Source: Novosphingopyxis iocasae
GTDB taxonomy: Bacteria; Pseudomonadota; Alphaproteobacteria; Sphingomonadales; Sphingomonadaceae
DNA length: 64,000 nt
Direction: 5' to 3'
Assembly (NCBI RefSeq): GCF_014334095.1
Contig: NZ_CP060495.1
Span: 209,001-273,000 of the forward strand
In this document: positions 8,787 through 51,721 of the stretch, piece after piece
How positions within the stretch are numbered: position 1 is the first letter of the stretch
How the letters are laid out: each line of letters begins with the position of its first letter
Position numbers and translations under genes: made by a program
The notes under the pieces: generated by a model
The model's input: the letters and a program-made list of their open reading frames with translations, nothing else
What the model was told of the DNA's origin: nothing
Database searches by the model: none

Positions 8787-9752
8787 GTGAATGGCTGGCT
8801 GATCCTCGATAAACCCCTGGGACTGGGTTCTACGCAAGGCGTGAGCGCGGTGAAACGCGCGCTGAGGGCAGGGGGCTACGCCAAGTGCAAGGTGGGCCAC
8901 GGAGGCACGCTTGATCCGCTGGCGACCGGCGTGCTGCCGATCGCGCTGGGCGAGGCGACAAAGCTGGCCGGACGCATGCTCGATGCGAGCAAGGTCTACG
9001 CCTTCACCATCGGCTTCGGCACCGAAACCGAAACGCTGGATGCGGAAGGGGAGGTGAGCGCAACCAGCGAGGTGCGCCCCGCTTTTGCCGACATCGAGGC
9101 GGTGCTGCCGCGGTTCACCGGGCCGATCGAACAGATCCCGCCGAAATATTCCGCGCTAAAGATCGATGGTAAGCGAGCCTATGATCTGGCCCGTGCCGGT
9201 GTCGAGGTGGAGATGAAGACGCGGCGCGTGACCATCGAATCTTTGACCGTAAGTCCTGAGCCTGCCGAAGGACGTCTTTCGGACGAGAACTGGGCTTCGA
9301 CAAACTCAGCACGCACGGGAATGAGCGGTGACGAGGGCGCGCCACTCGATTCCATCACGCTCATCGCTCACGTTTCCAAGGGCACCTATATCCGCTCGCT
9401 CGCCCGCGATATCGCGCGCGCCCTTGATACGGTGGGCCACGTCACCATGTTAAGGAGGTTGCGCGCAGGTCCCTTCGCGCTGGATTCCGCGATTTCGCTG
9501 GACAGGGTGGCCGAACTCGGCCAAGGGGCCGCGCTTGAGGAAGCACTCTTGCCGATCGAGGCGGGGCTGGACGACATCCCGGCTCTCACCCTCACCCCCG
9601 GAGAGGCAGAGGCGGTCCGCCAGGGCCGTTCTCTATCCGGGATCGCCGCAGACGACGGTTTGACATGGGCGCGGGCGCCGGATGGCATTCCCGTTGCGCT
9701 GGTACAGATCGAAGGCGGAGAGCTCCGCATCGTCCGCGGTTTCAATCTATGA
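8787..9752 (+). CDS. truB: tRNA pseudouridine-55 synthase TruB, with in-frame repeat insertion
   Basis: 321 residues; makes pseudouridine 55 in the T loop of tRNAs. The GTG start at 8787 gives the family N-terminus [16 protein letters not shown]; the catalytic Asp is in the [12 protein letters not shown] motif near residue 44. Further conserved pieces are [15 protein letters not shown] and [14 protein letters not shown]. Residues about 156-178 (ending SARTG) are encoded by a dispersed palindromic repeat between beta strands, just before the SKGTYIRSL core. The reading frame is kept, so the enzyme is probably functional. It is followed after 22 bases by rpsO. Confidence 0.93.
9252..9318 (+). 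repeat. Palindromic repeat element inside truB
   Basis: Left arm GTCCTGAGCCTGCCGAAGGA (9253-9272) and right arm GGCTTCGACAAACTCAGCA (9293-9311) are imperfect inverted copies. They belong to the same family as the intergenic copies at 17587-17680, 42976-43066 and 49171-49310. The length keeps the truB frame open and adds roughly 23 residues. Confidence 0.8.
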
Positions 9753-15289: not shown

Positions 15290-17566
<2,277 letters not shown>

Positions 17567-17586
17567 AGGTTCTGTAAAGTTCGACT

Positions 17587-17680
17587 GTTCGTTCGGCCTG
17601 AGCTAGTCGAAGGGCAGCTCTTCCTCCGTTGAAGATGGTAAAAAACAACACGGTGCTTCGGCAAGCTCAGCACGAACGGA
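17587..17680. repeat. Dispersed palindromic repeat after ligA
   Basis: Arms TTCGTTCGGCCTGAGCTAG (from 17588) and CTTCGGCAAGCTCAGCACGA (17655-17674) are imperfect inverted copies separated by about 40 bases. The element sits in the gap between the convergent ligA and DUF2459-like genes, where it could also stop transcription. Confidence 0.75.
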
Positions 17681-17689
17681 GGGCGAGCT

Positions 17690-18397
17690 TCAGTCTTTCG
17701 GCGGAAACCAGCGCATGACGCCGCCCGCGATCGGCGTCCAGATGCCCACCCGAACGCCCGCCTCTCGCAGCATGCGGCCGGTCCAGCTGTTGCAGCTATT
17801 GAGCGCGCTGTAGCGCCCATGCGCGGCGTAGAAGGCGTCGGCGGGGCCATAACCGAAACTGGGGACCGCGCGGCCGTCCGGACCGGTTTCGAACTGCGCG
17901 CGGACCGCGGCGGCGAGACGAAAATATTGCTCGTCGGTTAGCGTCACGCGGCGGCGATAAGGCTGCGGACCCGGCCGATATAGGAAATCGACATGCATCA
18001 GCGTCTCGTCCGATCCCGTGGCTGCGTTCCAGGCGATGGCGGGGGTCAAGTCCGCCCAGGTCTCCGTCTCCCGGTAGAAGCGCGCCTCGCCCCAGGCGAT
18101 CAGGACATGGTTGCTGTAATAGCGCGGATCGCGAATGTCGGAGGGGCGCAGCAGATCGCGCCAGTCGGCGATGTCGTTTGCCATCGGCATGACGATGCCG
18201 GTGTGGACGCCGTTCGTCTCCACCCAGATGGTGATGCCGTTTTCGGGCTCCCGCCAGCCTGGATTGGCGGCGACGAGCGATCCGGCCAGCGCGGCAGCGA
18301 AATAGAGACCGATCGCGAGCAGCAGCCAGCCGATCAGCGCCCTGATCACACGCCCGGGAGCCGAACGCGTGCCTGTTTCGTTTTTCGGGCTCATCAT
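17690..18397 (-). CDS. TIGR02117/DUF2459-like membrane-anchored protein
   Basis: 235 residues. One N-terminal membrane segment (about 21-43, LIGWLLLAIGLYFAAALAGS) is followed by a periplasmic domain with the family-like NGVHTGIVMP, HVLIAWGEARFYRET and LNSCNSWTGRMLREAG blocks. The His of NGVHTG and the Cys of NSCNSW may be catalytic, as in NlpC/P60-like folds; this is inference. The family was first noted near urease genes; its function is unknown. The start (ATG ATG at 18397/18394) lies only 14 bases from the divergent phhA start. Confidence 0.78.
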   Translation of the reverse strand: MMSPKNETGTRSAPGRVIRALIGWLLLAIGLYFAAALAGSLVAANPGWREPENGITIWVETNGVHTGIVMPMANDIADWRDLLRPSDIRDPRYYSNHVLIAWGEARFYRETETWADLTPAIAWNAATGSDETLMHVDFLYRPGPQPYRRRVTLTDEQYFRLAAAVRAQFETGPDGRAVPSFGYGPADAFYAAHGRYSALNSCNSWTGRMLREAGVRVGIWTPIAGGVMRWFPPKD

Positions 18398-42543: not shown

Positions 42544-42881
42544 GCGTTCTCGCTGAGGTCCGCAAAATCGATGTCGAGCAGGTCCATCTGCGCTTTCACC
42601 GGCGGCCAGGTTTCGCTGAGAAACCGTGCCCGCTCGATCTGCCGCAGCTTTTCGCGCGCGCCATCCGCCACGAACAAGCCGATCCCGCGCTTCACCTCGA
42701 CCAGATCCTGGTCCTGAAACGTCTGATAAGCCTTGGCGACAGTCAGCGGATTGGCGCCCTGGTCCGCGGCGAAGCTGCGCACGGAGGGAAGGGCATCGCC
42801 GTCCCGGTAAGTACCATCGAGAATTGATGCGGCAATCACATCGCGCAGGCGAAGATAGACGGGTTTCTGGGAATCGGGCAT
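42540..42881 (-). CDS. GntR family regulator, YtrA type
   Basis: 113 residues. The winged HTH is typical of the short YtrA subgroup: PVYLRLRDVIAASILDGTY, DGDALPSVRSFAADQGANPLTVAKAYQ and LVEVKRGIGLFVADGARE. A short helical tail (QIERARFLSETWPPVKAQMD) serves as dimer arm. YtrA regulators normally control a neighbouring ABC transporter; none is adjacent here, as it is convergent with the TPR gene (4-base overlap of stops) and followed upstream by a repeat. Confidence 0.87.
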   Translation of the reverse strand: MPDSQKPVYLRLRDVIAASILDGTYRDGDALPSVRSFAADQGANPLTVAKAYQTFQDQDLVEVKRGIGLFVADGAREKLRQIERARFLSETWPPVKAQMDLLDIDFADLSENA

Positions 42882-42975: not shown

Positions 42976-43066
42976 TCCGTTCGGGCTGAACCTGTCGAAG
43001 CCCCGCCCTTTCTTCTCCATCGCGCGCCGAGAAGAACAGTATTTCGACAGGCTCAGTACGAACGGT
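42976..43066. repeat. Dispersed palindromic repeat between GntR and nitroreductase genes
   Basis: Arms CCGTTCGGGCTGAACCTG (42977 on) followed by TCGAAG, and TTTCGACAGGCTCAGTACGA (43042 on), are inverted copies. An inner short inverted pair CTTCTTCTC/GAGAAGAA... lies in the loop. Same family as the copies at 9252, 17587 and 49171. Confidence 0.78.
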
Positions 43067-48481: not shown

Positions 48482-49147
48482 ATGACCACGCTCCTCATCG
48501 CCGCCATCGCCTTCGTCGGCACCCATTTCCTGATGAGCCATCCGCTGCGCGCACCGATGGTGCGGCTGCTCGGCAATTTCTTCTTCCTCGGCGCTTATTC
48601 GGCGGTCTCGATCGTCACACTGATCTGGATGATCCAGGCCTATAATGCCGTGCCGCCGGGCGAGGCGGCGTGGGCGGCGGGCGATCCGCTGTGGGCCGCT
48701 GCCACCGTGCTGATGTGGTTCGGATCGGTTCTGTTCGTCGGATCGCTGCTCGGCAATCCGGCTTTCCCTTATGTGATTGCAGGCGAGGCAGGGGGGCGGG
48801 GGCCCAAGGGCGTCTTCGCCATCACGCGCCACCCGATGATGTGGGGCATCGCTTTGTGGGGGATCGTCCACATCCTGATCGCGCCGCGGCCCGCGAACTT
48901 CGTGCTGAACGGCGCCATCATTGTCCTCGCACTTGTTGGCGCGGCGCTGCAGGACGGGAAGAAGAAGCGGCTGCTGGGCGATGCCTGGCGCAGCTGGGTC
49001 GCACGCACCAGCTACTTCCCCTTTGCGCGTGGTTTCGCGATGCCGGGCGCCACCGCACTGATCGGCGGCACGCTGCTGTGGCTGCTGGCGATGTACGGCC
49101 ACCGCTGGTTCGGGATCATGGGCGCGGGGGTTTTTCGGTGGCTGTGA
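48482..49147 (+). CDS. NnrU family membrane protein
   Basis: 221 residues with about six membrane helices. Family landmarks are LLIAAIAFVGTHFLMSHPLR at the start, LGAYSAVSIVTLIWMIQAY, and FAITRHPMMWGIALWGIVHIL in the middle (His-Pro in a methyltransferase-like membrane fold). NnrU was named from nitric oxide-related gene clusters, but many copies, like this one, lie apart from denitrification genes. No nitrite or nitric oxide reductase gene is nearby, so its role here is open. Confidence 0.85.
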   Translation: MTTLLIAAIAFVGTHFLMSHPLRAPMVRLLGNFFFLGAYSAVSIVTLIWMIQAYNAVPPGEAAWAAGDPLWAAATVLMWFGSVLFVGSLLGNPAFPYVIAGEAGGRGPKGVFAITRHPMMWGIALWGIVHILIAPRPANFVLNGAIIVLALVGAALQDGKKKRLLGDAWRSWVARTSYFPFARGFAMPGATALIGGTLLWLLAMYGHRWFGIMGAGVFRWL

Positions 49148-49170
49148 GGTTGCGCATCGACCGTTTCCGC

Positions 49171-49310
49171 AAGCCCTGAGCCTGTCGAAGGGCGGTTTTT
49201 TTTGAAGCGCCCGGGTGCACCCAATGCCGTAGTCCTGAGCCTGTCGGAGGACGCTTCTCCGGCACGGTCGCGCTATCCGGGCAGACGCCCTTCGACAGGC
49301 TCAGGGCTCA
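49171..49310. repeat. Composite palindromic repeat between NnrU and aldo/keto reductase genes
   Basis: Three arms: AGCCCTGAGCCTGTCGAAGG (49172), AGTCCTGAGCCTGTCGGAGG (49231) and the inverted CCCTTCGACAGGCTCAGGGC (49288). A T run (49196-49203) follows the first arm and another T run (49315-49320) follows the last. The element fills the gap between convergent genes and may terminate transcription in both directions. Confidence 0.8.
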
Positions 49311-49329
49311 CGCATTTTTTGGGTGAGCG

Positions 49330-51721
<2,392 letters not shown>

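Follow-up and report, generated by a model that had tools for sequence, protein, structure and literature searches.

We analysed a window of 64,000 nucleotides (nt) from Novosphingopyxis iocasae, positions 209,001 to 273,000 of NZ_CP060495.1, in a genome that forms a single contig of 3,191,507 bases (3.19 Mb). The window contains truB, the gene for tRNA pseudouridine-55 synthase. Inside truB, and read in frame with it, lies a copy of a genomic repeat of the repetitive extragenic palindromic (REP) type, in which two arms stand in inverted orientation:

8787-9752, plus strand: truB, tRNA pseudouridine-55 synthase, 321 amino acids (aa), GTG start, complete
9247-9318, plus strand: 72-nt dimer element of REP type, translated in frame as residues 154-178 (24 codons net), with the ends CCGT...ACGG
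9247-9273, plus strand: left REP arm, core CTGAGCCTGCCGAAG at 9256-9270, mini-stem GTC/GAC intact
9292-9318, minus strand: right REP arm, core CTTCGACAAACTCAG at 9295-9309, mini-stem broken

The truB product matches the Pfam profiles TruB_N, TruB_C_2 and TruB_C, all above cut-off. Each arm matches CTTCGACANGCTCAG with one mismatch, at 9256-9270 on the minus strand and at 9295-9309 on the plus strand, and no stop interrupts the translated copy. A sequence-only reading of the window had noticed both arms and an in-frame addition of about 23 residues at 9252-9318. The in-frame addition stands, and comparison with other copies extends it slightly, to the 72 nt given above.

The repeat is found throughout the genome. 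Its core, TTCGACANNCTCAG, has 97 exact matches against one for a reversed control, and the window alone holds 17 matches at up to three mismatches where 6.9 are expected, a number that none of 100 shuffles reached. From CCGT at one end to ACGG at the other, an element has a 15-nt core (CTGAGCYTGTCGAAG) and its inverted counterpart, separated by a variable middle. In the stretches around core matches (at most two mismatches) there are 75 elements, namely 57 pairs in the -+ arrangement, three in the +- arrangement and 15 unpaired arms, one or more of which likely match by chance. A second pairing rule gave 58 paired copies, on which the counts of ends, of lengths divisible by three and of folding are based. 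The ends of the truB copy are the commonest among them (CCGT in 33 of 58, ACGG in 37 of 58), and its arms span 54 nt, the most frequent arm-to-arm length among genome pairs (11/60). Near its left end it has GTAAG, which stands there in 10 paired copies, the others having GTAG (11), GTTCG (19) or something else (18). Each arm of the family is a small stem-loop with strong covariation: Watson-Crick pairing holds at the first pair of the mini-stem in 121 of 135 arms (CG 77, GC 42) and at the second in 119 of 135 (CG 53, TA 42, GC 24). The 72 nt in truB are confirmed as an in-frame inserted copy of this REP-type family, which we call family A (TTCGACANGCTCAG).

As a palindrome, the truB copy is degraded. 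Its RNA folding energy of -23.9 kcal/mol is the weakest of the 58 paired elements (57/58 are lower; median -46.3). Taken alone, it folds as DNA no better than its shuffles (z -0.19) and as RNA only weakly (z -1.52, with 19 of 200 shuffles equal or better). The earlier description as a palindromic repeat is right for the inverted pair of arms and too generous for this copy, whose weak hairpin would be the product of decay. An intact RNA hairpin as a selected feature is not borne out here.

In the protein, the element lengthens the tip of a beta-hairpin. We used an AlphaFold model of the window TruB (mean predicted local distance difference test score, pLDDT, 91.9), which has the fold of E. coli TruB (1k8w_A, TMq 0.83). 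The insert sits between strands 146-155 and 189-196, and therefore at the hairpin tip, directly before the strand leading into SKGTYIRSL, where the sequence-only reading had placed it. The pLDDT averages 53 over residues 161-170 and 48 over residues 171-180, and residues 172-178 are the sole run of at least three below 50. The tip is thus modelled with low confidence and is probably flexible.

The closest named TruB, at 76% in the best segment, is that of Novosphingopyxis baekryungensis DSM 16222, and the same protein is found in G001, the one congener genome compared. It lacks the 72-nt element and has a shorter loop; its length is 301 aa against 321 aa in the window, a gap of 20 residues and not exactly 24. 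The loop DNA of the two species aligns poorly, and the ends of the element were taken from other genomic copies instead. An in-frame insertion of a genomic palindromic family, absent from one congener, bears out the parallel with Rickettsia palindromic elements that had been drawn from the sequence.

The insertion in the window is one of many at this site. Relatives were drawn from three sources: 59 genomes chosen by kinship, the window's included (58 with a TruB match, and no internal stop in any match listed); 80 loci similar to the window protein, which may favour near relatives; and the truB neighbourhoods of 40 kinship genomes. The 80 loci, the 40 neighbourhoods and the window yielded 121 TruBs, of which 111 loops were parsed and 108 kept after three duplicates were dropped. 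Ten neighbourhood TruBs that did not fit the motifs were left out; nine have short loops, and the tenth (G002) has an insert of type B2 (see below) that would add a positive. We scored a stem as significant when it reached 11 or more and none of 40 dinucleotide shuffles did so. By this measure, 45 of the 108 loops carry a hairpin-forming insert at the TruB hairpin tip, and their median loop segment is 64 aa, against 36 aa in the others. At least 10 extra residues are present at the hairpin site in 56 of the 108 aligned TruBs, and elsewhere in the protein only in L209. In the kinship sample, taken at one per genus, significant stems occur in 10 of 26 parsed TruBs (of 32) from the window's family, the Sphingomonadaceae, and in 0 of 4 parsed (of 8) from other families of the order. 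No insert was seen in 13 parsed TruBs from other alphaproteobacterial families (20 loci fetched, mostly from the better-scoring entries of a 192-genome survey; the other seven were not parsed). These have a plain short hairpin, with a segment of 31-32 aa in 11 and a visibly short one, within a fixed 45-aa cut, in two. Relatives of the window gene therefore do not all share one segment with unrelated DNA: they lack it or have other sequence in its place, often another repeat.

An Erythrobacter-like clade (L070, L080, L101, L103, L106, L116, L179, L182, L183 and others) has a conserved extension at the same hairpin with no significant stem (SAFATTAGRPDPYDP, SAFATTAGRPDPYDPAAPLELA). A repeat adjoins this extension in L184, L194, L198 and L130. 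The extension may have begun as an insert, long since tamed, or be a loop peculiar to this clade.

The inserts were assigned to families by eye, from DNA and translation. Of the 45 labelled loops, in 10 families, 44 also have a significant stem; L119 has only the label, and L122 only the stem. Family A inserts occur in the window, L178, L181, L062 and L077. Families B1 (RHPREGGDP...LDSRLRGND), B2 (RHAELVSAS...KQVQGD) and B3 (HAGLDPAS...DQVRGD) typically begin with CGTCAT and mostly have a CCA tail. Family C reads ILPGTGRG...GPPPR and family D LPFRGGVG...HPNPSPEGEG, and families E to H are single cases or pairs, of which F was searched for copy number. Pattern searches identify A, B1, B2/B3, C and D as interspersed repeats, with 0-2 matches for reversed controls. 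On both strands together, family A has 226 copies in G059 and 93 in G011, family C 81 in G084, family B1 26 in G015 and 44 in G070, and B2/B3 83 in G069. Family D is its own reverse complement, so that its matches amount to 162 places in G067. Family F has 54 matches in G029 and only three in its carrier G076; two of these three are separated by 31 bases on the same contig and probably represent the copy in truB. In G034, G062, G078 and G085, the exact pattern finds the carried family only 1, 2, 0 and 0 times, and some inserts are therefore possibly relics, or variants that the patterns miss. Judged by their sequences, the inserts at the TruB hairpin tip come from at least four unrelated repeat families.

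Such a distribution rules out a single ancestral insertion, given the differing families and arm arrangements. In fact, even within family A the arms of L178 and L181 are arranged opposite to those of the window, L062 and L077, which favours separate events. On a quick tree of the 108 TruBs built with the loop left out (a single gene, and so a weak tree), the labels change at least 42 times, each change being a gain, a loss or an exchange, and presence against absence changes 30 times. The exact counts are 40 and 26 when branches with a Shimodaira-Hasegawa-like approximate likelihood ratio test (SH-aLRT) support below 80 are collapsed, and 24 and 12 when the limit is set at 95. Some inserts, such as the B3 inserts of L068, L069 and L084, are probably common by descent.

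Repeats also enter other genes in frame. The search of relatives covered part of the listed repeat sites in four genomes. In G015, all on the minus strand, B1-type repeats are read in frame in ValS (L216:212-3037), in the glycyl-tRNA synthetase beta subunit GlyS (L219:301-2694) and in the error-prone polymerase DnaE2 (L220:630-2999). In G080, the NAD-dependent DNA ligase LigA (L253:1-2031) has an in-frame family C element. Methylmalonyl-CoA mutase carries a family C element in both G080 (L251) and G084 (L257), at the same place by eye. An Smr protein is a candidate carrier of the same family in G080 (L248) and G084 (L265), again at the same place by eye; its Smr profile match lies wholly downstream of the element, and the upstream part is assigned to the gene by a likeness, seen by eye, between the peptides of the two genomes. 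The mutase and Smr sites are perhaps further landing spots. TruA of G003 (L232) was not counted as a carrier, its TruA domain beginning after the element. The window genome itself offers one further in-gene case, as the sequence-only reading had led us to look for: a desaturase-like ORF (open reading frame; L170:592-1725) with a family A element between its profile matches. It was the one with profile matches on both sides among 10 further ORFs spanning an element, seven of which have no Pfam match.

The event in the window had been called rare, and truB an essential-type gene. E. coli truB is dispensable, which makes the second point doubtful. The first does not hold, considering the inserts in 45 of 108 TruB loops, the in-frame copies in ValS, GlyS, DnaE2, LigA and methylmalonyl-CoA mutase of relatives, and REPs reported in truB in 2013.

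The other copies in the window had been called intergenic, and the remaining close matches (17598/17656, 42986/43042 and 49176/49235/49290) do lie in gaps between long ORFs or at their edges, when ORFs are listed with a minimum length of 120 or 150 aa:

17589-17679, no strand assigned: paired copy; the ORFs on either side end at 17566 and start at 17690, and an ORF without Pfam match at 17107-17850 (minus strand) overlaps it
42977-43065, no strand assigned: paired copy; the ORFs on either side end at 42565 and start at 43065
49167-49199, no strand assigned: single arm after a 221-aa ORF ending at 49147; a 169-aa ORF at 48670-49179 overlaps it by 13 bases
49226-49313, no strand assigned: paired copy before a 333-aa ORF at 49330-50331 (minus strand); a 233-aa ORF at 49301-50002 (minus strand) overlaps it by 13 bases

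Elsewhere in the window genome (G000), six paired copies (G000:C1:1392922, 1471381, 1620192, 1930922, 2070061 and 2147589) share an additional middle that contains CCGTCTGCGACTCCGACA, or the complement of it, and may represent a sub-family or a nested repeat. The congener G001 has seven core matches (one free base in the pattern) against the 97 of the window genome (two free bases), which suggests expansion in the latter or loss in the former.

To explain these results, we propose that a REP-type element was inserted in frame at the TruB hairpin tip, at a site where such insertions survive, accumulate repeatedly and then decay, and we consider this account probable. REP-type elements, made of two inverted stem-loop units, would be copied throughout the genome by a mobiliser. 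Most insertions into genes would be harmful and would be purged; the survivors would be those with a length that is a multiple of three, a stop-free frame and a site that tolerates a flexible loop. Of the 58 paired copies, 25 have a length divisible by three, and about half of the readings of these (76 of 150) are open, which would make about one fifth of random insertions readable. The hairpin tip of TruB may be such a tolerant site, and because it would meet these conditions, repeat families of various kinds would have gathered there again and again. The extra loop would be nearly neutral, and after insertion the palindrome would decay while the reading frame is kept.

Three observations weigh against this account. 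First, a profile search found no Y1_Tnp match (PF01797, the type of the REP-associated tyrosine transposases, RAYTs) in the window genome, and the mobiliser of the window's repeat family is therefore unproven. PF01797 occurs in 9 of 39 genomes and is absent from the family-rich G059 and G073. A RAYT as local mobiliser was rejected on two grounds, the missing Y1_Tnp and the lack of any link to copy number across the 39 genomes. Second, in four pairs of shared inserts (taken from nine compared, with no species used twice), third codon positions differ about twice as often as first and second positions (33/145 vs 36/290, p 0.008), which argues that the inserted residues or stems are not wholly free. 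The bias is sharper in the flanks of the same pairs (40/100 vs 27/200), and a further pair, L084/L095, shows none (9, 5 and 8 differences at positions 1, 2 and 3). Constraint on the inserts is weak, not absent. Third, recognisable elements are denser in the hairpin than tolerance alone predicts. For 32 genera of the window's family, a search of the neighbourhood of truB with strict motifs gave seven elements within the gene (30,102 bp) and seven outside it (569,294 bp), a 19-fold difference in density (binomial p 2e-6; counts of 7 and 7). By a rough gene call, 54.5 kb of these neighbourhoods is intergenic; three of the seven elements outside truB are in no called ORF, and four are in ORFs of 249-939 bases (one directly after a stop codon). 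If the target in each truB is assumed to be 90 nt, seven elements in about 2.9 kb (32 x 90 nt) exceed the intergenic density with p 2e-6.

Could the truB hairpin then be an active target, with a feature of the DNA or of transcription (sequence, single-strandedness or operon position) attracting REP-type insertions beyond what tolerance allows? Both density comparisons point this way, as does the arrival of four or more unrelated families at a single site. Yet the counts are small, the size of the target is assumed, and intergenic copies may decay past recognition faster. Moreover, a single motif common to families with different ends is improbable, no boundary motif common to them is visible by eye, and the 13 parsed TruBs from other alphaproteobacterial families are free of inserts. 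On balance, we find active targeting unlikely. A broader statement, that the hairpin tip in Sphingomonadaceae is a true hotspot for several unrelated families of palindromic repeats and receives more insertions than intergenic DNA, and that the enzyme gains, loses and exchanges selfish loops of 20-40 residues, is one we can put forward only tentatively.

An insert kept for a function seems very improbable. It could provide a new binding surface, alter RNA-chaperone activity or form a hairpin in the mRNA and so tune the truB-rpsO-pnp transcript, and both the third-position bias and the identical spacer residues in the inserts of three Sphingopyxis-type genomes (L068, L069 and L084) would fit. 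However, the site is occupied by unrelated families with unrelated peptides, the hairpin in the window is the weakest of its family and alone folds about like shuffles, and the model gives the insert the low confidence typical of flexible loops. That an ordinary fast-evolving loop resembles the repeat by chance can be dismissed almost entirely: hairpin length does vary among relatives, and the Erythrobacter-like extension is conserved with no significant stem, but the two arms with one mismatch each have the family's own spacing and ends, the genome-wide count, the reversed-pattern control and the shuffles rule out chance likeness, the family match refutes it, and other repeat families show the same phenomenon.

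Our preferred account, survival of REP-type insertions at a tolerant hairpin tip, can be set beside known systems. Like REPs, bacterial interspersed mosaic elements (BIMEs) and REPINs (REP doublets forming hairpins) of the GTAG superfamily, the window family is built of short stem-loops that mostly occur as inverted pairs; many copies are intergenic, and occasional ones lie in genes. Unlike that superfamily, it resides in a genome without a RAYT-type transposase, and 37 of the 58 copies have neither GTAG nor GTAAG. The B1-B3 inserts of relatives, with their CGTCAT start and usual CCA tail, resemble CGTC-tagged REPs, whereas the window copy has the ends CCGT...ACGG and belongs to family A. Passages of Di Nocera 2013 (PMC3733652) define 24 GTAG families and describe REPs inside genes, including truB of S. 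maltophilia, E. litoralis and S. alaskensis; cases involving CGTC-tagged REPs include truB, tRNA synthetases and dnaE2. The same passages place Rickettsia RPE-4 and RPE-6 among the CGTC-tagged REPs and mention an RPE-1 insertion in R. conorii truB (PMC3733652). REPs inside truB were thus already known, and the window insertion adds a case. It is like the published truB REPs in the gene concerned and unlike them in that here one hairpin is the site and many families use it. Two of the three species with those published insertions are sphingomonads. The window element is also like the Rickettsia palindromic elements such as RPE-1, being an in-frame palindromic insertion in a protein gene; host and way of life differ. 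We found no report of several families recurring at one TruB hairpin in the literature searched, a limited collection without the supplementary in-gene list of Di Nocera.

Apart from scattered cases among REPs, in-frame palindromic insertions were known chiefly in Rickettsia. The TruB loop, a single site in a conserved enzyme, bears the record of many insertions by various families, with natural insert-free relatives for comparison. It opens to direct test the old question of neutral, harmful or targeted inserts, and it illustrates how selfish DNA can turn into protein sequence. In these bacteria, selfish DNA seems able to land safely in the hairpin loop of TruB.
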